From SAR116 cluster bacterium AG-447-A06 (GTDB taxonomy: Bacteria > Pseudomonadota > Alphaproteobacteria > Puniceispirillales > Puniceispirillaceae), in the NCBI GenBank assembly GCA_003212345.1, contig QCPZ01000001.1:156501-220500 (forward strand): a stretch of DNA of 64,000 bases. The letters are read 5' to 3'. The notes below the pieces were generated by a model. It was not told where the DNA came from. It saw nothing but the letters and a program-made list of their open reading frames with translations, and searched no databases. Below are positions 27,622 to 46,810 of this stretch, piece by piece. Positions within the stretch are counted from its first letter, which is position 1. Every line of letters starts with the position of its first letter. The position numbers were made by a program, and so were the translations under genes.

Positions 27622-28632
27622 TCATCTCCCAAGGACTTTTAAAATCCGCTGACGATACTCAGGCGCTTTACCACCAGCTTCATTTGCCATTTTTTGCCAA
27701 GTTTCTGATGCTGCATTCAAAAATGCCAAGCGGTCCTGTTCCGAGAAAGCATCTAAAAATTCGATTCCTTGTGCAGTTAATTTAGCTCTAGCAGCCTGCT
27801 CTTTTTCTTCTGCCTTAGAGTATTCATTTGTGCGTGCCCAGACATTTGCTGCTGCTGTACTTATGGATGCACGCTCCTTATCCGAAAGAGTGTTCCATGC
27901 ACTTTCAGAAGCGCCTAATACGTATGGCACACCGGCAACAGGGTATAAGTAAGAAGCGTATTTTGTAACTTCTTGGAGTGAAATAGTGTGAGCAAACAAA
28001 GCTGGATAAACAGCACAATCAACCACACCAGTCTGAAGTGCCACATATAGATCATTTTGGCCAACGATCTGAGCTGAAACCCCTAACTTTGTGAAGGTTT
28101 CTACTTGATCGTTACTCCATACGCGAAGTTTTCTTGTTCTCAAATCATCAAGAGTCCGAACTGGCTTTTCACGACAAAAAATCGAAGCTTTAAGTATTGG
28201 CAGCGCCATAAAACCTGTGGGGACAATTTTCCACTCTGCCAGAACCTCTTTGTATATTTTTTGGATTTCCGGGAGCGCTGTTATAAGCTCTTTTGGACTA
28301 CCAACGGAACCCTGAATCATCACTGCGTTCAACGCGGGAACGTCACGACCTAAATAGTTCGCCCAAACCAAGCCCATTTCCGCAGCTCCACGCGGCAACC
28401 ACCGCGCTACATCATTGTCTTTCAAGTTTAATGAGCCACCATGAAAGACCTTTATGTTGAGACTCCCATCCGACAAATCAGAAACTTCTGCTGCGAACTT
28501 TTCAAGCTGTTTAGACTCACCTCTTCCTTCAGGCAAACCATTGTTAAATTTCCAATTTGCTGCATGTGCCGTTCCAATCGACAAGCAAACACCACATGCA
28601 ATTGGCAGTAAAAGACTTAAAAATTTACGCAT
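27622..28632 (-). CDS. TRAP transporter periplasmic solute-binding protein (DctP family)
   Basis: Signal peptide; [47 protein letters not shown]. Confidence 0.93.
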
Positions 28633-32736: not shown

Positions 32737-33828
32737 ATGAAAAGAAGAGATTTTATTTCGAAGGCCGGTTTGGCTGGAGCCGGCGTTGCAGCTACATCAG
32801 CATTAGCCACGCCAGCAATCGCGGCGGATCGTGTTGAGATAGCGATGGTTTCAACATGGCCTCGTGATTTTCCAGGTTTGGGAACCGGGGCACAAAGATT
32901 TGCAGAAAAATTAGGTGAGGTCAGCGATGGCAGAATTCAGGTCACCTATTACGCTGCAGGCGAGCGTGTTGGTGCTTTTGACTCATTTGATGAGGTCGCC
33001 TCAGGAAATGCGCAAGCATATCATGCGGCTGATTATTATTGGAAAGGCAAACATCCAGGATGGGCTTATTTTACCGCGGTACCTTTTGGTCTAACTTATG
33101 GTGAAATGAAATCTTGGCTACATTGGATGGGTGGTCAGGAATTACATGATGAACTTGCTGGAGAGTTCGGCCTTAAATGTGTTCCAATGGGCAACACAGG
33201 CGTTCAATGGGGAGGATGGTTCAATAAGGAAATCAACTCTGGTGATGACCTCAAAGGACTTAAAATGCGTATACCAGGCCTTGGCGGTGACGTTATGGCA
33301 AAACTTGGCGCCTCGCCAGTGTCTCTACCTGGTGGCCAGATTTATGAAAACCTTGTTTCAGGTGCCATCGACGCCACAGAATGGGTCGGTCCGTGGAATG
33401 ACGAGGCCATGAAGTTCTATGAGGCAGCAAAATACTACTATTATCCTGGAATGCACGAGCCTGCATCACAGTTACATACGGGTTTTAATGCTTCATTCTG
33501 GAGTAAGCTAAGCGCGTCTGACAAAGCTCTTATTTATTCGGTTGCGGTTGGAGAAGATAGTAACTTTATGGCGGAATATAATGCCAAAAATGGCGCTGCA
33601 TTGGAAAGGCTTGTTAATGATCAAGGTGTCGTTGTTAGAGAATTTAACGACGATGTTTACGCTGCATTTAAGCGTGGATCAGATGAAGTTTACGCTGAAG
33701 TAGTTGAACATTCCGCTTTGGCCAAGAAAATCCACGAGTCTGCAATGAATGCTCGAAAAGTAGTTGGCGATTATGTTCAGCTTAACGACGTTGCTTATGT
33801 GAATAAGCGGAATGCGGCACTCCGCTAA
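32737..33828 (+). CDS. TRAP transporter solute-binding protein (DctP family), Tat-exported
   Basis: MKRRDFISKAGLAGAGVAATSALATPAIA twin-Arg signal; VTYYAAGERVGAFDSFDEVASGNAQAYHAADYYWKGKHPGWAYFTAVPFG. Confidence 0.95.
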   Translation: MKRRDFISKAGLAGAGVAATSALATPAIAADRVEIAMVSTWPRDFPGLGTGAQRFAEKLGEVSDGRIQVTYYAAGERVGAFDSFDEVASGNAQAYHAADYYWKGKHPGWAYFTAVPFGLTYGEMKSWLHWMGGQELHDELAGEFGLKCVPMGNTGVQWGGWFNKEINSGDDLKGLKMRIPGLGGDVMAKLGASPVSLPGGQIYENLVSGAIDATEWVGPWNDEAMKFYEAAKYYYYPGMHEPASQLHTGFNASFWSKLSASDKALIYSVAVGEDSNFMAEYNAKNGAALERLVNDQGVVVREFNDDVYAAFKRGSDEVYAEVVEHSALAKKIHESAMNARKVVGDYVQLNDVAYVNKRNAALR

Positions 33829-33840
33829 TCTAATCTTCGA

Positions 33841-33867
33841 GGGGCCCGCGAAAAACGGGCCCCTTTT
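33841..33867 (+). terminator. Strong hairpin plus T-tract between dctP and dctQ
   Basis: GGGGCCCG-cgaaaaa-CGGGCCCC then TTTT. Confidence 0.85.
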
Positions 33868-33899: not shown

Positions 33900-34898
33900 T
33901 TGCGAATGTTCGCCTTTATTCACTTTTTTGGATTAAGCAGCGCGTTTCTGGCGTTTTTGTTTTTGATAAACAATTTTTTGATTTTTGTTGTGGATGCCCC
34001 TGGCGTTATTAATCTATTGGGGCTAAATGATCTATTAGGAACAAAAGCTCCTAAAGACGGATACTCAGCAGGTCTTTTCGCCCTGGGTATTCTTCAGCTC
34101 AGTGCTGTTGTTGGCGCAATTGTTTTTGCCGCATGGCGTGTTATGAAGTCTGATAGCATGCGCGAAGACGCTGTGATGTTAGATAAAGCCTCTTCTTATT
34201 TCGTAAGGTTTGCCTTTTGGGCTGTTTTTATGATTGGTATTTTTGATGCCTTTTTGTCATTTTTACGCGTAGAAGGACTACACGACAATTTGTTTGGAAC
34301 AGATATAGCTTCATTAATAGCCTTGCCATCAGGGCGGGGAGTTTATTTCCATTTACCATTGTTTTTTCTTGCGGCTTTAATCGCTCTCAGGGATAGAACT
34401 GTGTCTCTAATATGGCTCTCACTTCTCGTGGTAATGGCAGAGTTTCTCATTGTTATCCTGCGATTTATTTATGGATATGAACAGACCTTCATGGGCGATC
34501 TTGTCAGATTCTGGTATGCGGCTCTGTTCCTTTTTGCTTCAGCCTACACATTAAAGGAAGATGCTCATGTCAGGGTTGATGTGATTTATGCAGGATTAAG
34601 GCATAAAACCAAGTGTATTCTCAATAGCACTGGATGCTTTTTCTTTGGTATCCCTCTTTGCTGGCTTATTATAGTTAGAGGTTTGTGGGGTAAATCTAGC
34701 CTGATAAATAGTCCTATGCTAAATTTTGAGACTTCCATGAGTGGGTTTGGTATGTATATCAAATACTTGATGGCAGCCTTCTTATTGGTTTTTGCTTTAA
34801 GTATGCTACTGCAGTTTACCTCTTACCTATTTAACTCTCTGGCGGATCTAACTGAAGCTTCATCTGAAGAAGGCAGCCCGAAAGAGGTGGCAGCATAA
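33900..34898 (+). CDS. TRAP transporter small permease (DctQ) with extended N-terminal membrane region
   Basis: GDLVRFWYAALFLFASAYTLKEDAHVRVDVIY DctQ core; several additional N-terminal hydrophobic segments. Confidence 0.88.
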   Translation: MRMFAFIHFFGLSSAFLAFLFLINNFLIFVVDAPGVINLLGLNDLLGTKAPKDGYSAGLFALGILQLSAVVGAIVFAAWRVMKSDSMREDAVMLDKASSYFVRFAFWAVFMIGIFDAFLSFLRVEGLHDNLFGTDIASLIALPSGRGVYFHLPLFFLAALIALRDRTVSLIWLSLLVVMAEFLIVILRFIYGYEQTFMGDLVRFWYAALFLFASAYTLKEDAHVRVDVIYAGLRHKTKCILNSTGCFFFGIPLCWLIIVRGLWGKSSLINSPMLNFETSMSGFGMYIKYLMAAFLLVFALSMLLQFTSYLFNSLADLTEASSEEGSPKEVAA

Positions 34899-37549
34899 TG
34901 GAACTGTTTTTTCTCGCAATTTTATTTATTTTGATGATGTATGCGCTTGGTTCTGGTTTTCCGGTAGCTTTTGCGCTCCCAGGCTCTGCAATTGTTACAA
35001 TTGTATTGGCAGGATTATCGGGTGCGATTTTTGAAGGTGATAGTGGAGCATATTTCATTCAAGATGGTCCGGTAGAGTGGCTGACTGCGGGGGTAATGAA
35101 TTTTCGCGGCATTTATTGGGAAGTTGAACGAGACACCCTGATCGCTATCCCTTTGTTCATATTCATGGGAATAATGCTTCAACGATCCAAGATCGCCGAG
35201 GATCTTCTGGTGACAATGGCGCAATTGTTTGGACCCATACCCGGAGGACTAGGCATTTCCGTTGTTTTTGTTGGGGGACTGCTGGCAGCAACAACGGGTA
35301 TCGTTGGCGCCACCGTCGTCGCGATGGGTTTAATTTCTTTGCCAGCTATGCTTAGAAACAATTATTCGAAACCACTTGCAACCGGTACAATCTGTGCCTC
35401 TGGAACTTTGGGCCAAATTATTCCGCCCTCCATTGTACTAATCATACTGGCAGACCAACTAGCAAGTGCGGCGGATCAAGCAGCTACTGCCAGAAAAGAG
35501 CTTTATAAACAGGCAACTGGCCAATTCAGCATGCCATCAGAGTTTAGCATTATTTCAACGAGTGCTGGGGATATGTTTCTTGGGGCTTTTCTTCCTGGAC
35601 TGGTTTTAGTTGGCCTATATATGGCCTACATATTGATTGCAGCACTCCTCAAGCCTAACATCGCACCAGCCGTCCGTTACGATGGCAAGCTATTAACTCA
35701 AGAGTTCATGTTTAAAGTGGGCTTAGCCCTAATTCCTCCATTGTTGCTGATTTTTTTGGTTCTCGGCTCCATTATCGCGGGCATAGCAACCGTTAATCAA
35801 GCCGGTGCAATTGGTGCAATTGGCGCAATGGTTATGGCCGGATACAAATTGCGGGAAGGAACAAAAACAGCGTTTTATCCAGCTATTTTAGCCGTTCTAT
35901 CAATTTTGTTAATTTGGTTAATTTCTGCAAACTTTAATCTCAGCATTAAAACAATAACCGAAACGAGAGATTGGGTCGGTATTGGTGTCTGTACATTAGC
36001 TGTTTTTGGCCTTTGTTCTGGTATTGCCTGGAGTGGCTGGCGAGCATTTAAAACAGAAAATACGCTTCGAGATGTTATGGCAGAGACAGCTAAAACAACT
36101 TCGCTTGTCTTCATTATTTTGCTGGGTGCAGCAATGCTAACGGCAGCATTTAGAGCCTTTGGTGGTGAAGAGGTAGTTAAACACTTCCTGTCAAGTTTAC
36201 CGGGAGGATTCTGGTCACAGTTCATCGTGGTTATGCTCGTAATATTCCTCTTAGGTTTTTTTCTTGATTTTATTGAGATAGCCGTAGTTGTTGTTCCAAT
36301 TGTTGCTCCAATCCTACTGGCGGATCCCTCTGCGAATATTACAGCGGTATGGCTTGGTGTTATGATTGGTCTGAATATTCAAACCTCATTTTTAACACCT
36401 CCTTTTGGTTTTGCGTTGTTCTACCTAAGGGGAGTTGCAACGAAAGCTGTTAAAACGATCGAAATGTACAAGGGCGTGATACCGTTTATAGCTCTGCAAT
36501 TAGTGGGCTTAGCCATTGTTGGAGTTAATCCCAGTCTAGTAAATTATTTGCCAACAAAAACTTTTTTATCGAGTGAAACAGCACCTCCGCCAAAAAATCC
36601 CCGGCTTCAACTATGCCTTGAAGACTATTTATTCGATTTTTACAACTCTAATGAAAATAACTTTTTAGAACAGGTTGTTTTGCTTAGAGAAGTTGACTAC
36701 TCGTCATTGCCGAAGTCACAAGAAAAAAAGCTGCAGCAGAGTCTTAATAATGCTGAACAAATTTACGAAAAAATTGACGCTGTTGAGGCGGCAAAAAAAG
36801 CGATCGCTTCGGCAGCACCCGAATATGCACCTGTATTATCACAAGTTCGAATGCTTGAACGACTCATCAAACAAAAGCAAAAGCAAAACAAAAATTTAAC
36901 CCTGGAGTTGCGTGGTGTTGATGAGCAAGAAGAAAAAGAAAAAATCAAAAACAAAATAAAGCAGATAAACGATGAAGTTGCAGATTTGAAAAATCAAATT
37001 CCAGAAACCTGGAATAAAACAAACAAAGAATTTAAGAAACTTACAGGGCAGTTAAATCGTGCCCGTATGCAATTTCGCAGAAGTTCCGACAGATCATACG
37101 CTGATATCCGTGACTTATCCATCATGATTGAGTCTGCACCAGAATTATCAGCTATTCTTCTTACTCTGCAAGACGTTGAAAAAAATATAGATATAATCGA
37201 CGGAGGCCAATTGAGTAGCAAACTTGGTACCATTTACACAGCACTCAACACGATACCTGGGACGAATAAGATTGCGAAGAAGCTCTCAGACGCAAAACGA
37301 GCTGCCAAGAATAAAGAACAAAAAATTGACAGGATCCAAAAAAATATTTCTGAGGCAACAGCCGCTATAATCAAAGAAATTGATTGGCGAAAAAAAGCTA
37401 AAACAACCGTCTACAAAGCGCTAGTCAATTTTGAGACTTATACAAGGAACAACCTTGGACTGCGCGAACAAAAACGCCTCGCCGATGAGCAGGTTGATGC
37501 GATTACGCCTTGTTTAGCTAAGCACCGAAACCTCTCTTTGCAATTCTAG
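34898..37549 (+). CDS. TRAP transporter large permease (DctM) with long coiled-coil C-terminal extension
   Basis: DctM core GLLAATTGIVGATVVAMGLISLPAMLRNNYSKPLATGTICASGTLGQIIPPSIVLI; C-terminal ~325 aa charged/helical (EQEEKEKIKNKIKQINDEVADLKNQIPETWNKTNKEFKKL). Confidence 0.93.
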   Translation: MELFFLAILFILMMYALGSGFPVAFALPGSAIVTIVLAGLSGAIFEGDSGAYFIQDGPVEWLTAGVMNFRGIYWEVERDTLIAIPLFIFMGIMLQRSKIAEDLLVTMAQLFGPIPGGLGISVVFVGGLLAATTGIVGATVVAMGLISLPAMLRNNYSKPLATGTICASGTLGQIIPPSIVLIILADQLASAADQAATARKELYKQATGQFSMPSEFSIISTSAGDMFLGAFLPGLVLVGLYMAYILIAALLKPNIAPAVRYDGKLLTQEFMFKVGLALIPPLLLIFLVLGSIIAGIATVNQAGAIGAIGAMVMAGYKLREGTKTAFYPAILAVLSILLIWLISANFNLSIKTITETRDWVGIGVCTLAVFGLCSGIAWSGWRAFKTENTLRDVMAETAKTTSLVFIILLGAAMLTAAFRAFGGEEVVKHFLSSLPGGFWSQFIVVMLVIFLLGFFLDFIEIAVVVVPIVAPILLADPSANITAVWLGVMIGLNIQTSFLTPPFGFALFYLRGVATKAVKTIEMYKGVIPFIALQLVGLAIVGVNPSLVNYLPTKTFLSSETAPPPKNPRLQLCLEDYLFDFYNSNENNFLEQVVLLREVDYSSLPKSQEKKLQQSLNNAEQIYEKIDAVEAAKKAIASAAPEYAPVLSQVRMLERLIKQKQKQNKNLTLELRGVDEQEEKEKIKNKIKQINDEVADLKNQIPETWNKTNKEFKKLTGQLNRARMQFRRSSDRSYADIRDLSIMIESAPELSAILLTLQDVEKNIDIIDGGQLSSKLGTIYTALNTIPGTNKIAKKLSDAKRAAKNKEQKIDRIQKNISEATAAIIKEIDWRKKAKTTVYKALVNFETYTRNNLGLREQKRLADEQVDAITPCLAKHRNLSLQF

Positions 37550-37576
37550 AATGCCAATATTAAACTTAGGAAATCC

Positions 37577-38704
37577 GTGAAAACTCGCATAAACACTCAA
37601 GCAACCCTTTCAATGAGAGGCGCTGGTTATTACTCAGAACGGACAGCTGGGGCTCGTGACGTCATAAATAACGCTGGACCTATGATACAGGCAGCCATTG
37701 AGGAAATCCCCAAAGACAAAATCTTGCGCATAGCAGATTTTGGAGCTGCTGACGGTGGCACCAGCAATCAAATGTGGGACAATGTAATTTCCAAACGCCG
37801 AAAGGCTGGTGACTGTAGACAAATAGAAATGCTCTACACTGACCTACCTAGCAATGATTTCTCTAGTTTATTTCGAATGATGCAAGGCATGCAGGGAAAC
37901 AGCAATTTTGCGCTTCAAAAAAACCACGACAATGTGTTCGTGCATGGATGTGGCACAGGGTTCCATCAACAACTTCTCTCTAATTCTTCTCTCCATCTAG
38001 GGTTTAGCGCGACAGCGATGCATTATGTTTCGTCAAAACCAGTCGAAATTCCAAACCATGTTCACGCCGCATGTGCGGATATTAACTCAAAGACCGCATT
38101 TGCCAAACAAGCAGCCGTTGATTGGCAAAATATTTTGCTAGCACGAGCTGCGGAGCTGGTTCCGGGTGGGCGTTTTATCTGCCTTAATTTCGGTATTGAT
38201 GCTGAGGGTCGTTACCTTGGTAATACAGGTGGAAAACATATGTTTGACCACTTTCACAAATTTTGGAGAGCACTTTATGAAAAAGGAAGCATCACAAAAA
38301 GCGAATATGAAGGTGCAACTTTTGTTCAGTATTACCGAACAATGGAAGAGTTTTGTGCCCCCTTTTCAGACCCCAATAGCGATGTGAGTCGGGCTGGATT
38401 GGTACTCAAATCGAGTTCCACTAAACTAACAAAGTGCCCATATGAAGCGGCATTCCACGATGCTGGTGAAGGGATGTCAAACAGAGAATATGCTGAAAGT
38501 CTTATCCCAACCATGCGATCGTGGTCAGAGACTGTTTTCAAAACCGCCCTCAAAGGGCGAGACAGTTCCGAAATCAACAAAATTGTCGATGACTTTTATC
38601 AGGCATACTCGGATGAAGTGGCGGCGGATCCAAAAGGGCATGCAATGGATTACGTACACATTATCCTAGATATCGAAAAAACAGCTGCCTCAATGTCAAG
38701 CTAA
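37577..38704 (+). CDS. SAM-dependent carboxyl methyltransferase, SABATH-like (Methyltransf_7)
   Basis: MRGAGYYSERT...LRIADFGAADGGTSNQMWDNVI, LYTDLPSNDFSSLFRMM, NSSLHLGFSATAMHYVSSKPVEIPNHVH, ELVPGGRFICLNFG; GTG start. Confidence 0.82.
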   Translation: MKTRINTQATLSMRGAGYYSERTAGARDVINNAGPMIQAAIEEIPKDKILRIADFGAADGGTSNQMWDNVISKRRKAGDCRQIEMLYTDLPSNDFSSLFRMMQGMQGNSNFALQKNHDNVFVHGCGTGFHQQLLSNSSLHLGFSATAMHYVSSKPVEIPNHVHAACADINSKTAFAKQAAVDWQNILLARAAELVPGGRFICLNFGIDAEGRYLGNTGGKHMFDHFHKFWRALYEKGSITKSEYEGATFVQYYRTMEEFCAPFSDPNSDVSRAGLVLKSSSTKLTKCPYEAAFHDAGEGMSNREYAESLIPTMRSWSETVFKTALKGRDSSEINKIVDDFYQAYSDEVAADPKGHAMDYVHIILDIEKTAASMSS

Positions 38705-38709
38705 CAAAA

Positions 38710-40305
38710 TCAGTAGCCAATTGCACATCCGTCTTTTCGTGGATCAGATCCAGCAATTAGCAAGCCTGTTTCCCAATCAATAAATATTGCCTGTGAACCA
38801 CCAATAGGTTTTGAGGCGGGTTGAATATTATGCCCAAGGGCTCGCAAACCATCACGTAATTCATTACTGATTGGCTCTTCAACTTCAACAAGATCACTGA
38901 AAGGATCGGGCATGAACCGTGGCGTGTCTTGGGCCTCCTGTATATCCATGCCATAGTCGAATAGGCGGGTTAAAAACTGCATATGACCAAAAGCCTGATA
39001 TTCACCGCCCATTACCCCAAATGACATAACAGTTTTACCATCTTTTGTCGCCATGCCCGGGATAATCGTATGAAGCGGGCGCTTGCCTGGTTGAATACAG
39101 TTCGGATGACCCGGCTCAACAACAAATCCCTGACCACGGTTTTGCAAAATAACGCCAGATTCAGGCGCAAGAATACCGGCACCAAAATTATGAAATACCG
39201 TGTTTATAAAACTGCAAGCGTTACGATCCTTATCAACAACACTAATATAAACCGTGCTTTTATGCTTTGGCAGGGTGCTCTCAGGAAGTGTATCGAGGGC
39301 CTTATTTGGATTAATCTGCTCCCGAATAAAATCAGCGTGTTCTGAACTCAGCATAGCCGTAACCGGTACATCAGAGAATTCAGGATCAGCTAGATATAGA
39401 TTTCGATCACGATATGCGAGACGACCTGCTTCAATCTCATGATGAATACGTTCTAAAGAAATAGGATGATCACCAAACTTATCCATACCAGAGACAATAT
39501 TTAGTAACATCAACGCAATGACACCCTGTCCATTTGGAGGACATTCCCAAATATCATAGCCCCGAAAATTAGTCTTGATTGGTGTAACATAATTTGCCAC
39601 CGCTGCATCAAAATCGTCTTGCGTGTGTACACCACCAAGTGCATTGAGCTTCCTCAGAATATCATCAGCTACCCAGCCCTCATAAAATCCAGCGCGGCCA
39701 TGTTCCGCAATTGCCTCCATTGTCGTAGCAAGGTTTTCATTAATAAATCGGTCACCCATCTTGTAGTCATCACCGTTTTTCAGATACAGAGAGCTTAAAT
39801 CGGTGTCTCCAAGGATTAACTCGCGGCTTGCAGCAAAATCTGCCTCAACACGCTGACCAATCGGGAAACCATCTCGTGCATATCCAATTGCTGGTTGCAA
39901 AAGATCACCCAGTGGTTTTTTTCCATGGTCACGGTTCAATTGTACCCATGCATCAATTGCTGTTGGCACTGTTACAGCATGAGGCGACTGTTGTGGAATC
40001 TCAGAAATTCCCTGCTTAAGCAACCACTCGGCAGTAAGCCCCATTGGCGCACGACCCGAACCATTTAACGCGATAACCTTGTCACTGCCAGCTTTGGAAT
40101 AAAGACAAAAGCAATCGCCACCAATGCCAGTGGACTCCGGCTCAACAACTGCTTGAACTGCACTCGCTGCTATAGCAGCGTCCATCGCATTGCCACCGTT
40201 TTGAAGCACTGTAACTGCGGCTTGAGTTGATAAAGGATTGGATGTGCTGGCCATTCCGTGTGGAGCCAAAACTGGTGACCGCCCTGGCCGTTGTAAACTC
40301 CGCAT
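38710..40305 (-). CDS. Gamma-glutamyltransferase family protein (no obvious signal peptide)
   Basis: HGMASTSNPLSTQAAVTVLQNGGNAMDAAIAASAVQAVVEPESTGIGGDCFCLY; KHKSTVYISVVDKDRNACSFINTVFHNFGAGI. Confidence 0.93.
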   Translation of the reverse strand: MRSLQRPGRSPVLAPHGMASTSNPLSTQAAVTVLQNGGNAMDAAIAASAVQAVVEPESTGIGGDCFCLYSKAGSDKVIALNGSGRAPMGLTAEWLLKQGISEIPQQSPHAVTVPTAIDAWVQLNRDHGKKPLGDLLQPAIGYARDGFPIGQRVEADFAASRELILGDTDLSSLYLKNGDDYKMGDRFINENLATTMEAIAEHGRAGFYEGWVADDILRKLNALGGVHTQDDFDAAVANYVTPIKTNFRGYDIWECPPNGQGVIALMLLNIVSGMDKFGDHPISLERIHHEIEAGRLAYRDRNLYLADPEFSDVPVTAMLSSEHADFIREQINPNKALDTLPESTLPKHKSTVYISVVDKDRNACSFINTVFHNFGAGILAPESGVILQNRGQGFVVEPGHPNCIQPGKRPLHTIIPGMATKDGKTVMSFGVMGGEYQAFGHMQFLTRLFDYGMDIQEAQDTPRFMPDPFSDLVEVEEPISNELRDGLRALGHNIQPASKPIGGSQAIFIDWETGLLIAGSDPRKDGCAIGY

Positions 40306-40431: not shown

Positions 40432-41325
40432 ATGAAAATTGGGTTCATTGGACTTGGCAATATGGGCGCGCCAATGGCGCAAAGACTTGTGGAAGCAGGA
40501 CATATAGTCACCGGCTATGATTTAATGGAGAGCGCCATCGCTGCCATGCCAAAAGACATGATTACAATTGCCAATGACGCTCCTGATGCAGCTAGAGATC
40601 AAGATATTGTCATAACAATGCTACCCGACGGCGAATCGCTAGCATCAGTTGCCGCAGCAATCATTCCAGTTATGCGGCAAAGATCTTGTCTAATTGATTG
40701 TTCAACAGTGGATGTAAATACTGCAAGAGTCGTGGCTGAACAGTGCAAAGAAGCCAATATCCTTGGGCTTGATGCACCAGTATCAGGTGGCGTTGTTGGT
40801 GCTGTTTCTGGAACACTCACATTTATGGTTGGTGGAAGCGTAGCTAGTTTTGCGATTGGCAGCCAGCTTTTTGAAATCATGGGTCAACGCGCAATACATT
40901 GTGGTGAAGCAGGCGCTGGGCAGGCAGCTAAAATTTGTAATAACATGATTCTTGGCGTTAGCATGATTGCAACCTGTGAAGCGTTCGCCCTAGCTGATGA
41001 TTTAGCGCTTGACCGACAAAAACTATTTGACGTTGTCAGCACTTCATCAGGAAATAGTTGGTCCATGAGCACCTATTGTCCGGCTCCCGGAGTTGGCCCT
41101 AAAAGCCCGTCTGATAATCATTATGCACCAGGTTTTTCAGCCGCCTTGATGCTCAAGGATTTACATCTGGCGCAACAGGCTGCTGATCTTAATGGCACCC
41201 CAACCAGAGCCGGAAAACTTGCTTTAGACATCTACAGGGACTTTGTTGAGTCAAAAGATGGCGCATCATTAGATTTTTCGGCAATCCTTAACGAACTAAC
41301 GGCAGGTCAGAAAATCGAGGGCTAA
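40432..41325 (+). CDS. 3-hydroxyisobutyrate dehydrogenase family protein
   Basis: MKIGFIGLGNMGAPMAQRLVEAGH; DAPVSGGVVGAVSGTLTFMVGG; GAGQAAKICNNMILG. Confidence 0.92.
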   Translation: MKIGFIGLGNMGAPMAQRLVEAGHIVTGYDLMESAIAAMPKDMITIANDAPDAARDQDIVITMLPDGESLASVAAAIIPVMRQRSCLIDCSTVDVNTARVVAEQCKEANILGLDAPVSGGVVGAVSGTLTFMVGGSVASFAIGSQLFEIMGQRAIHCGEAGAGQAAKICNNMILGVSMIATCEAFALADDLALDRQKLFDVVSTSSGNSWSMSTYCPAPGVGPKSPSDNHYAPGFSAALMLKDLHLAQQAADLNGTPTRAGKLALDIYRDFVESKDGASLDFSAILNELTAGQKIEG

Positions 41326-42968: not shown

Positions 42969-43348
42969 TTATTTGTTTTCACACTTTTAAAATAATCAAG
43001 CCCGCAAAATAATATTGGCCAATCATTTAGAAACTGACAAGCCTCATATAATCAGCTTTTGCAATTGTTAATTGCGGCGCAAAGTGTCACCATAAAAAAT
43101 ACCGTTTAGGCAAATTTGCACTGACGCTGTTGTTCACCCTGCAAGTTCACCAAAATTGCTACAAAAATAACACCGGCGCCAATAAATATCAGTAAGTTAG
43201 AAGTCTAAACATAGGCTCAGAAACCAATTTCGCTGATTAATGGGAGCTGCATAAAGCCTAGTAGAGAAATAACAATAGGTTGAGCAATTCGATTTAGATC
43301 TAATATCCACTTTATAATCAAACAGGGTTTATGGTTAAATGGTGTCTG

Positions 43349-46300
43349 ATGGGTGAAATAACTTTACTTGATTGTTATGAAAAAAATCACGGTCTGGCCT
43401 ACATAACCGGAATGCAGGCACTAGTGCGGCTGCTTATTGAGCAGGCAAGGCTTGATCGTGAAGGCGGTATTAACAGCCGCGGCCTTGTCAGTGGTTATCC
43501 CGGCTCGCCACTTGGTGGGCTTGATCTCGAGCTTGCCCGCAATAGCAAGCTCCTCAAAACAGAAGGCATAATATTTCAGCCAGCCATTAATGAGGAGCTT
43601 GCGGCAACTGCGGTCTGGGGTAGCCAACATATCCACCTTTATGACGAGCCAGAAATTGACGGGGTATTTGGACTTTGGTACGGCAAAGGACCAGGCCTTG
43701 ATCGGGCGCTTGACGCTGTCCGCCACGCTAACATGGGCGGGGTATCAAAACAGGGCGGCATGGTGCTAGCTGTTGGCGATGATGCTACCGGCAAATCATC
43801 AACAATTGCTTATCAGTCTGAACAAACATTCATTGCAGCTGGTGTACCATTCTTTTACCCACGCTCGACGCATGACATCATTTCCATGGGGTTACAGGCC
43901 TTTGCATTGTCACGCATGGCGGGATGTTGTGTTGGGATGAAAATTGTTGTTGATACCGCAGACACAAGCAGTGTGATTGATCTTGATACCATTCGACCAC
44001 CATATCTCAGTGACGGCCATAACCTCACCAAAGAGGGTATTGGCCCTGTTCATGTTGGCCGCCATGACCCCGCATTAATACGTGAAGACCGGCTATATAA
44101 TTTGCGCCTTCCCGCAGTTCGTAAATTTCAACAAACACAGAATATAAACACACCACTTCACCCTAAACCATCCAAAGCAAAACTTGGCATCATGGCAGTC
44201 GGGAAAACGCTTTATGAGGTAAAAGACGCATTACTAAGTCTTGGCATTAATGATCCAGCAAAATCTGGTATTGGGCTTTTCTCAATTGTCATGCCATGGC
44301 CGATTGATCCAAAATCACTCTGCGATTTTGCCTCTGATTATGATGAAATATTGGTGGTTGAAGAAAAGCGTCCCGTTGTTGAAGACCAGATTGCACGCGC
44401 TGTGGTTAATATGACTGACCGTGGGGTCATCACTGGTAAATTTTCCCCAGATGGTAAGCCACTTTTGCCTGAAACAGGTGAGTTGACCCACGCAATTTTA
44501 ATGACCTCTATTCACAGCCGTGCCAACGCTCATGGCATTACAACTGATTTGCCACACATGGTAGATGCAGGCGCACCTGTTCTTCCCTCGATTGCGACGA
44601 GAACACCATGGTATTGTGCAGGCTGTCCTCATAACTCCAGTACTAAACTGCCCGATGGTGAAGTTGTGGGCATGGGGATTGGCTGTCATTCGATTAGCGG
44701 GTTTTTAACGCCTGACGAAATTACCAATTTCACCCAGATGGGTGGCGAGGGTGCCTTCTGGATTGGTCGTTCACCTTTTTCGAGCCATAACCATAGTTTT
44801 CAAAATATTGGTGATGGTACCTATGCACATTCCGGCTACCTTGGGATCCGTGCCGCGGTCGCTTCTGGGGTGAATCTGACTTTTAAGATTTTGTACAACG
44901 GTGCGGTTGCCATGACCGGTGGACAAGCGGTTGAGGGTGGACAAGCGCCCTGGATTATGTCTCAACAACTGGCTGCCGAAGGTGTCGTAAAAATTGCCAT
45001 CGTCACTGATACACTGAATGATCTGTCAAACGATGCTAAATGGGCTAGCAATAGCCAAATTTATCATCGTCGTGACATTATAAAGGTTCAGCGAGAGCTG
45101 AAATTAATCCCAGGCGTTACCGCGATTATCTATATACAAAACTGTGCAACTGAACTGCGGCGCAAGCGCAAACGTGGCATCATCGCCGACAAGATTGAAA
45201 CCATCGTAATTAATGAAAAAATTTGCGAGGGCTGCGGAGATTGTGCGGCCCAGTCTAATTGTGTTGCGGTAAAGCCAATCATGCGCCCAGAGGGTGAAAA
45301 ACGTCAGATTGATCAAAATCTTTGCAATAAGGACATGTCTTGCCTGACCGGATTTTGCCCCAGCTTTGTTACTGTTCACAGCAAGGCTGATACTAGTACT
45401 CAAATTCTAAATCAACGCCCGGCCTTTCCTAAAAATCTCAAGTTGCCAACACCTCCTGCTAAGCATTATGAAATTTGCAATATCTTTATTGCCGGAATTG
45501 GCGGTACTGGCGTTTCCACCCTATCTGGCATTCTGGTTATGGCGGCTCGCATCGATGGAATTGCCGGTACCGCGGTCAATCAAACCGGCCTCTCGCAGAA
45601 AAATGGCGGTGTTACCAGTCAGGTAAGACTAAAGCGAAATGGATCACTCACCAATCACATGGTGCGGCTTCCTACCTATGAAGCTAATTTGCTGATGGGT
45701 TGTGATGCAGTGGTAGCGGCCAATGATATGGTACTTAATCTTATGAATAAGATGACTAGCCGTGCAATTATCAATGATAATATTGATCCAGTTGGTGTTG
45801 CCGGTGTTGGCATTGGCAGTATTGTTGATATGCCAGTTGTGATGTCCCGCCTTGGCGCTGTGATGGATCCAGCACGAATCACACGATTTACCATTTCATC
45901 ACTTGCCAATGATCTTCTTGGTAGCACTACATCTAGTGCCATAATCATGCTTGGCTGGGCCTTGCAGAAGGGGCTAATCCCGCTTGGCATTGATGCGGTA
46001 GAGAAAGCTCTTCAGCTGAATGGAACAGCAATTAATGATAATCTTGCTGCCCTAAAATGGGGCCGATTATTAGCGCATGACCCAACCCTGCTATACGCCT
46101 GCATTGAGACATATGAGGATGGCGAACAAGATGCTTCTGTTATGAAAAATTCTGAAGATGCAATTGCCTATTTCGCCAAGCAATTAAACATTTATCAAAA
46201 CACTGCCTATGCGACGCGTTTCAAAACAATCATTAACAAATTTCTTACCCAGATTGATCATCATAAGATTGATAGAAATACGATTGGCGTAAAGGCAGCG

Positions 46301-46810
46301 CGCGCCTTGTATCGAGCCATGGCTATTAAAGATGAGTATGAAGTAGCGCGCCTGTTAACGGAGGCAGCATTCACCGCAAAACTGGACTCAATTGGTGGAG
46401 ATAAGCCAAAGATTTATTACCACCTTGCTCCTCCCATTCTTTCTTGGCTTAAGGATAACAATGGGGCGCCACGTAAAATCCGCATTGGCCAGTGGATAAC
46501 ACCGGTGTTGCGGGGACTGGCAAGGCTGTCTTGGCTTCGTGAAAGTTGGATTGACCCGTTTGGTTTCAGCGGCGATAAACAAGCCGAACGGGCACAGCGT
46601 GATACCATTATCAACTGGATCACAACCCTTGGCAGCATGGCGTCACCTGGCCAGCAGACAGATATTGAGGAGGTGCTCGATCTTATACTGCAGCTGCGCG
46701 GCTATGGCCATATCAAAGCGAACAACTATGCTAAGCTCGAACCGCAAATAGTTGCGTTGCTGGACCAACTATCCAAACAGCCACCACCACTGGATTTAGC
46801 AGCAGAATAG
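43349..46810 (+). CDS. Indolepyruvate ferredoxin oxidoreductase, fused alpha/beta
   Basis: SRGLVSGYPGSPLGGLDLEL; CEGCGDCAAQSNC Fe-S motif; IAGIGGTGVSTLSGILVMAARIDG; single 1150+ aa ORF; start chosen at internal Met. Confidence 0.95.
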   Translation: MGEITLLDCYEKNHGLAYITGMQALVRLLIEQARLDREGGINSRGLVSGYPGSPLGGLDLELARNSKLLKTEGIIFQPAINEELAATAVWGSQHIHLYDEPEIDGVFGLWYGKGPGLDRALDAVRHANMGGVSKQGGMVLAVGDDATGKSSTIAYQSEQTFIAAGVPFFYPRSTHDIISMGLQAFALSRMAGCCVGMKIVVDTADTSSVIDLDTIRPPYLSDGHNLTKEGIGPVHVGRHDPALIREDRLYNLRLPAVRKFQQTQNINTPLHPKPSKAKLGIMAVGKTLYEVKDALLSLGINDPAKSGIGLFSIVMPWPIDPKSLCDFASDYDEILVVEEKRPVVEDQIARAVVNMTDRGVITGKFSPDGKPLLPETGELTHAILMTSIHSRANAHGITTDLPHMVDAGAPVLPSIATRTPWYCAGCPHNSSTKLPDGEVVGMGIGCHSISGFLTPDEITNFTQMGGEGAFWIGRSPFSSHNHSFQNIGDGTYAHSGYLGIRAAVASGVNLTFKILYNGAVAMTGGQAVEGGQAPWIMSQQLAAEGVVKIAIVTDTLNDLSNDAKWASNSQIYHRRDIIKVQRELKLIPGVTAIIYIQNCATELRRKRKRGIIADKIETIVINEKICEGCGDCAAQSNCVAVKPIMRPEGEKRQIDQNLCNKDMSCLTGFCPSFVTVHSKADTSTQILNQRPAFPKNLKLPTPPAKHYEICNIFIAGIGGTGVSTLSGILVMAARIDGIAGTAVNQTGLSQKNGGVTSQVRLKRNGSLTNHMVRLPTYEANLLMGCDAVVAANDMVLNLMNKMTSRAIINDNIDPVGVAGVGIGSIVDMPVVMSRLGAVMDPARITRFTISSLANDLLGSTTSSAIIMLGWALQKGLIPLGIDAVEKALQLNGTAINDNLAALKWGRLLAHDPTLLYACIETYEDGEQDASVMKNSEDAIAYFAKQLNIYQNTAYATRFKTIINKFLTQIDHHKIDRNTIGVKAARALYRAMAIKDEYEVARLLTEAAFTAKLDSIGGDKPKIYYHLAPPILSWLKDNNGAPRKIRIGQWITPVLRGLARLSWLRESWIDPFGFSGDKQAERAQRDTIINWITTLGSMASPGQQTDIEEVLDLILQLRGYGHIKANNYAKLEPQIVALLDQLSKQPPPLDLAAE

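Follow-up and report, generated by a model that had tools for sequence, protein, structure and literature searches.

The window, that is, the whole 64,000-nucleotide stretch of the SAR116 cluster bacterium AG-447-A06 that was analysed, encodes a SAM-dependent methyltransferase of the SABATH superfamily directly downstream of the genes for a TRAP transporter. Whilst the superfamily itself is known, the alphaproteobacterial family to which this protein belongs is a distinct one, with an altered carboxylate clamp and a TRAP context. The reading that we favour, with a probability of roughly 0.45, is that the protein would act as a cytoplasmic small-molecule methyltransferase alongside a TakP-type TRAP importer, and that it would use SAM to convert the acid brought in, or something closely derived from that acid, to a carboxyl methyl ester. 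The features of the locus are as follows:

32737..33828, + strand: dctP, TakP-type TRAP solute-binding protein (PF03480; phmmer match to 2hzk, 3.5e-71)
33839..33865, + strand: GC-rich hairpin with a T-rich tail in the dctP-dctQ gap, resembling a terminator or processing site (by pattern match only)
33900..34898, + strand: dctQ, enlarged small permease subunit, 332 aa (PF04290, 32.3 bits)
34898..37549, + strand: dctM, large permease subunit, 883 aa (PF06808, 213.7 bits)
37568..37571, + strand: AGGA ribosome-binding motif of the methyltransferase gene (read from sequence)
37577..38704, + strand: SABATH-superfamily (PF03492) SAM-dependent methyltransferase, 375 aa, GTG start
38710..40305, - strand: gamma-glutamyltranspeptidase-family hydrolase (GGT; PF01019, 478 bits)
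40432..41325, + strand: 3-hydroxyisobutyrate-dehydrogenase-family (HIBADH) enzyme (TIGR01692, above cut-off), a conserved neighbour in SAR116 genus g1

The methyltransferase gene is real. Its start lies 27 bp beyond the end of dctM (37549), as the initial annotation had placed it, and a plus-strand scan of this gap found no terminator-like site. The translated open reading frame contains all four of the SABATH-layout motifs that had been quoted for it, namely YYSERT, IADFGAADGGTSNQM, TDLPSNDFSSLF and SSLHLGFSATAMHYVSSKP. Since orthologues that are 60-83% identical are present in 22 other genomes of the order, it is also a maintained gene. Amongst its neighbours, the large permease subunit continues past the DctM domain for ~338 aa in a charged, coiled-coil-like extension at its C-terminus (about 36500-37549), and the GGT-family protein shows homology to the catalytic small subunit from residue 351, its nearest solved relative being the ‘cephalosporin acylase’ 2nlz. 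The strong hairpin at 33839-33865 possibly raises the level of the binding protein.

Membership of the SABATH superfamily, which had been claimed from motif layout, is upheld by profile and fold together. The protein matches PF03492 (SABATH/Methyltransf_7) at 118.6 bits against a cut-off of 29.8 (E = 4.4e-34, profile positions 12-332 of 335) and is the sole match to this profile in the SAR116 genome; the same profile found no match in 14 control genomes, and an NCBIfam search with the protein matched no family. An AlphaFold model (pLDDT 85, pTM 0.86) is predicted to adopt the Rossmann core and helical cap that define the SABATH fold. When this model was searched with Foldseek the first 29 matches were all SABATH structures (TM by query 0.64-0.79), headed by the mycobacterial fatty-acid methyltransferase FAMT (5f2k; TM 0.79/0.83), and the next family reached at most 0.45. 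A sequence search of solved structures likewise ranked 5f2k at the top (2.1e-23) with the plant enzymes behind it, and a profile built from 16 relatives reproduced this order. In a 48-row tree, which omits row G394_L066 (as do the residue counts below), the three plant SABATH proteins group together with support (100/96) and away from every bacterial sequence, and the alphaproteobacterial sequences form a group of their own, with FAMT and the divergent protein L061 outside on long branches; these long branches and the small number of references from outside the family make the tree a limited test of plant nesting. Tree, fold and structure searches therefore identify a bacterial-type SABATH-superfamily protein rather than a plant-like import, and a plant origin was rejected on tree and structure. 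The label ‘plant-like’ given in the initial annotation is misleading, because the methyltransferase sits in a separate, mostly marine alphaproteobacterial family, whose members include SAR116, SAR11-like single cells and Amorphaceae, and its nearest solved relative is bacterial.

FAMT of Mycobacterium marinum (5f2k/5f2n/5f2o) shares the bacterial superfamily fold and the SAM-site residues, but it is only 24% identical to the window protein, is encoded in an unlike gene context, and has a clamp Gln and Trp where the window family has Ala and Tyr. The plant enzymes SAMT (1m6e), IAMT (3b5i) and LAMT (6c8r) have the fold, the SAM motif and the DLPxNDF motif in common with it, and a histidine of IAMT and LAMT is matched by H149; however, they are 17-18% identical in structural alignment, fall in their separate clade, and possess the clamp Gln and Trp that the window family is without.

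In SAMT the substrate carboxylate is bound by K10, Q25 and W151 (K21, Q36 and W161 in IAMT), LAMT additionally uses His162 for carboxylate contact, and S22, D57, D98, L99 and F130 are the SAM-site positions of SAMT (PMC13376665); the conserved glutamine binds carboxylic acid substrates across the SABATH family (PMC10420828). The SAM site is retained in the window protein, in which D54, D89, L90 and F129 match D57, D98, L99 and F130 and S22 is replaced by T23. The clamp is lost: in an alignment that is ungapped around these positions Q25 corresponds to A26, an alanine in 89/89 family members, W151 to Y150 (Tyr in 87/89, Trp in 2/89), and K10 to K, R or V, whilst the glutamine is kept in FAMT, SAMT, IAMT, LAMT and L061. 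H149, the counterpart of LAMT His162, is invariant, and T23, G25, R/K27, H161, N204, D208, R254, R314 and W316 are invariant or nearly so. As 80 of the 89 rows were found through the patterns GH[AG]MDY[VI]H and GFSATA[MS]H[YW], the search itself partly fixed how often H149 and Y/W150 were counted; A26 lies outside both patterns. We infer from these residues that the substrate is held in an arrangement that differs from that of the SABATH relatives and is more polar. Judged by its aligned residues, the family fails the defining feature of SABATH carboxyl methyltransferases and this argues against standard carboxyl chemistry. Given the Gln-to-Ala and Trp-to-Tyr replacements, the name ‘carboxyl methyltransferase’ that the gene had received is therefore sound as to superfamily and a guess as to acceptor.

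The link between the methyltransferase and the TRAP transporter is genuine, and is seen in several arrangements. Throughout SAR116 genus g1 the order dctP-dctQ-dctM-methyltransferase is conserved on one strand, followed in nearly all genomes by the GGT and HIBADH genes. In the SAR11-like genomes, a presumptive label based on one record titled Pelagibacterales and on the gene order conserved near parC and rpiB, the methyltransferase gene follows parC and stands tail to tail with an ACAD-dctP-dctQ-dctM operon. In genome G163 the order is methyltransferase-dctP-dctQ-dctM, with a short DctM, and in Acuticoccus mangrovi and Amorphus coralli it is dctM-dctP-methyltransferase, with genes for an M19 dipeptidase, a 567-aa protein and an Ldh_2 dehydrogenase downstream on the same strand. 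In a complete genome of SAR116 family f4 the methyltransferase and TRAP genes are about 12 kb apart, and the interval holds glycine-cleavage, DUF3726, 567-aa, M19 and nicotinamidase-family genes. In several lineages, including the g2 SAR116 genomes and an SDR-linked group, the methyltransferase lies away from any TRAP gene. The GGT gene is tied to the methyltransferase in two SAR116 arrangements, that of g1 and another in which g2 and genera related to it order the genes differently.

A TRAP gene was found within 10 kb of the methyltransferase in 34 of the 52 loci that had at least 4 kb of sequence on both sides, and on a tree in which the Amorphaceae rows were unlabelled at least three changes of adjacency are needed. 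Co-occurrence with the coiled-coil DctM, which had been proposed as a check, was also recovered. Within the order the long DctM is present in all 23 genomes that carry the methyltransferase (in one of them visible only as a contig-edge fragment) and in 57 of 113 non-carriers (p 2e-6); in the class sample a full-length long DctM is found in 9/12 carriers, a count that leaves out the divergent G434, against 22/373 other genomes (Fisher p 8e-9), both p-values being calculated without regard to relatedness. DctM matches at E <= 1e-60 occur in 79/136 genomes of the order, most of them spanning all 883 aa; in the class sample 31/385 genomes have a full-length match. Where no TRAP gene is adjacent, 16 of 20 carriers have a DctM match elsewhere, which includes the C-terminal extension in 14 of those. 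Chance adjacency was rejected on the several arrangements together with the co-occurrence. Import itself needs no methyltransferase, since the long DctM often occurs without one.

The cargo of the importer is suggested by its binding protein. In TakP of Rhodobacter sphaeroides (2hzk/2hzl), pyruvate and a cation are bound by Tyr100, Gln156, Arg177, Glu214, Trp215 and Glu240 (PMC1839085). The DctP of the window (32737-33828) is 39% identical to TakP and has all six residues unchanged; amongst solved structures it is matched best by TakP and further TRAP receptors, one of them ketoacid-binding. The six residues are also present in the linked DctPs of the SAR11-like genomes and G163, and those of the Amorphaceae show conservative changes, to Asp at 214 and Phe at 215. 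The test discriminates, because the other DctP of the window (27622-28632) is without four of the six. The importer therefore probably carries a 2-oxo or 2-hydroxy acid. It differs from the TakP system in its enlarged permease subunits and in its coupling to a methyltransferase gene. The alternative neighbours of the methyltransferase comprise Ldh_2 dehydrogenases, an RraA-like aldolase with an acyl-CoA ligase, and the HIBADH family, whose common theme would appear to be 2-oxo or hydroxy acids. Of the earlier proposal that an imported carboxylate becomes methyl-esterified, the organic-acid importer stands on the six TakP residues; the esterification is weakened by the alanine that replaces the clamp glutamine in 89/89 sequences.

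In the scheme that we infer for substrate class, acceptor atom and physiological purpose, DctP would bind a 2-oxo or 2-hydroxy carboxylic acid together with a cation, as its conserved ligand residues suggest, and DctQM would bring the acid into the cell. This acid or a metabolite derived from it would then reach a pocket without the usual Gln/Trp carboxylate clamp, in which the invariant polar residues are for the most part peculiar to the family (T23, R/K27, H149, Y150, H161, H163, N204, D208 and R254). By analogy with other SABATH enzymes the methyl group would pass directly from SAM without acid-base catalysis. The likeliest product would be a small polar acid methyl-esterified at its carboxyl group, with another acceptor atom nearly as likely, and the ester would serve to mask or detoxify the acid or to mark it for the next step. 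Trans-aconitate methyltransferase (Tam), which belongs to another methyltransferase family, offers a functional analogy only, in that it would likewise methylate a small polar acid. We also put forward, tentatively and with less assurance than the main reading, that this uncharacterized SABATH family methylates a 2-oxo or 2-hydroxy acid by a new chemistry, or else a product of that acid at N, S or enol O, and that together with the TRAP transporter (and in some lineages the M19, 567-aa, DUF3726 and Ldh_2 genes) it could constitute an undescribed dissolved-organic-acid pathway.

Several other explanations must be set against carboxyl methylation of the imported acid. The same enzyme, with the same TRAP link, might methylate the compound that is taken up, or a product of it, on an atom outside the carboxylate (nitrogen, sulfur, or the oxygen of an enol or hydroxyl group), which we regard as somewhat less likely than the ester and as the strongest of the rivals. 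The residues that orient a carboxylate are gone (Q25 to A26, W151 to Y150) in a protein whose SAM site is intact, and several clusters include M19 dipeptidase, DUF3726, GGT or nicotinamidase-family genes, which fit nitrogen-containing substrates. SABATH members of the caffeine type do methylate nitrogen, but these are a recent plant offshoot and we know of no bacterial precedent; moreover, the invariance of H149, the equivalent of the carboxylate-contacting His162 of LAMT (PMC13376665), speaks for a carboxylate. It is less probable again that the methyltransferase does not act on the TRAP substrate at all and serves in metabolite repair, as trans-aconitate methyltransferase does, or makes a volatile or signal ester, its proximity to TRAP genes reflecting co-regulation or history. 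This would accord with the many genomes that have the transporter without the methyltransferase, with those in which the two lie far apart, and with a gene order that varies between lineages; four arrangements with two types of DctM, alongside the strong co-occurrence, are nevertheless not readily accounted for unless the two have a substrate or pathway in common.

The two explanations drawn from the characterized relatives fare far worse. A fatty-acid O-methyltransferase that makes fatty acid methyl esters, as mycobacterial FAMT does, is suggested by 5f2k being the closest solved structure in both sequence and fold, but is very improbable in view of the 24% identity, the Gln and Trp that FAMT has and the window family is without, and a conserved neighbourhood that holds no lipid genes. 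Least probable of all is an enzyme of the salicylate, jasmonate or indole-acetate type acquired from plants. It would share the Pfam family, and a putative fused 2-oxoacid:ferredoxin oxidoreductase at 43331-46810 could handle aryl pyruvates; however, the plant proteins form a separate clade on long branches with bacterial FAMT nearer to the window protein, and the window family, which has lost the carboxylate clamp, is old and widely distributed amongst the Alphaproteobacteria. The candidate oxidoreductase is a 1159-aa open reading frame 5 kb downstream of the methyltransferase, and genes related to it are found near the locus in a few g1 genomes.

Few cells in the sea are as common as SAR116 and SAR11-like bacteria, and a methyltransferase that is retained across them, is tied to an acid importer and has an altered substrate site points to an overlooked methylated marine metabolite. 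It could alter the use of part of the dissolved acid pool, and it spends SAM in cells with streamlined genomes. SABATH enzymes are more than a plant theme, and the family allows one to examine how a substrate is recognized when the SABATH glutamine is absent, the conserved TRAP context making the question of its substrate testable. A literature search turned up neither a paper on a SABATH enzyme of marine or alphaproteobacterial origin nor biochemical data for any member of the family, the only text match in a marine alphaproteobacterium being an isoprenylcysteine enzyme.

Relatives of the methyltransferase were found as 390 stretches in GTDB genome contigs, the best 80 of which belong to SAR116, SAR11-like single-cell genomes, Rhodobacteraceae-labelled single cells, Acuticoccus and Amorphus. 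Orthologues occur in 23/136 genomes of the order, and PF03492 matches in 13/385 genomes of the class sample and 4/399 of the phylum sample; the nearest named relatives are Candidatus Puniceispirillum records. A phage-borne gene was considered and rejected, with no match among 50,697 phage records. The 567-aa protein has no Pfam, NCBIfam or useful PDB match and a poor AlphaFold model (pLDDT 50); it is found in 96/136 genomes of the order, many without the methyltransferase, and is therefore not specific to the methyltransferase/TRAP system. The M19 dipeptidase, a 567-590 aa protein and a protein of ~210-225 aa (DUF3726 where scanned, a name found in no paper in the literature search) form a conserved trio whether the methyltransferase is present or absent (L042 7818-11268; L143 11182-15558; L204 8439-11876). 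In SAR116 family f3 (L182 11448-13040, L183, L189 and L192), which is without the methyltransferase, a different GGT-family gene directly follows dctPQM, and the cluster is located after parC as in the SAR11-like genomes. The locus also occurs, in SAR116-like and SAR11-like form, in two public records, L076 and L115, whose titles, Porticoccaceae (UBA9550) and Euryarchaeota (ARS96), are probably wrong.
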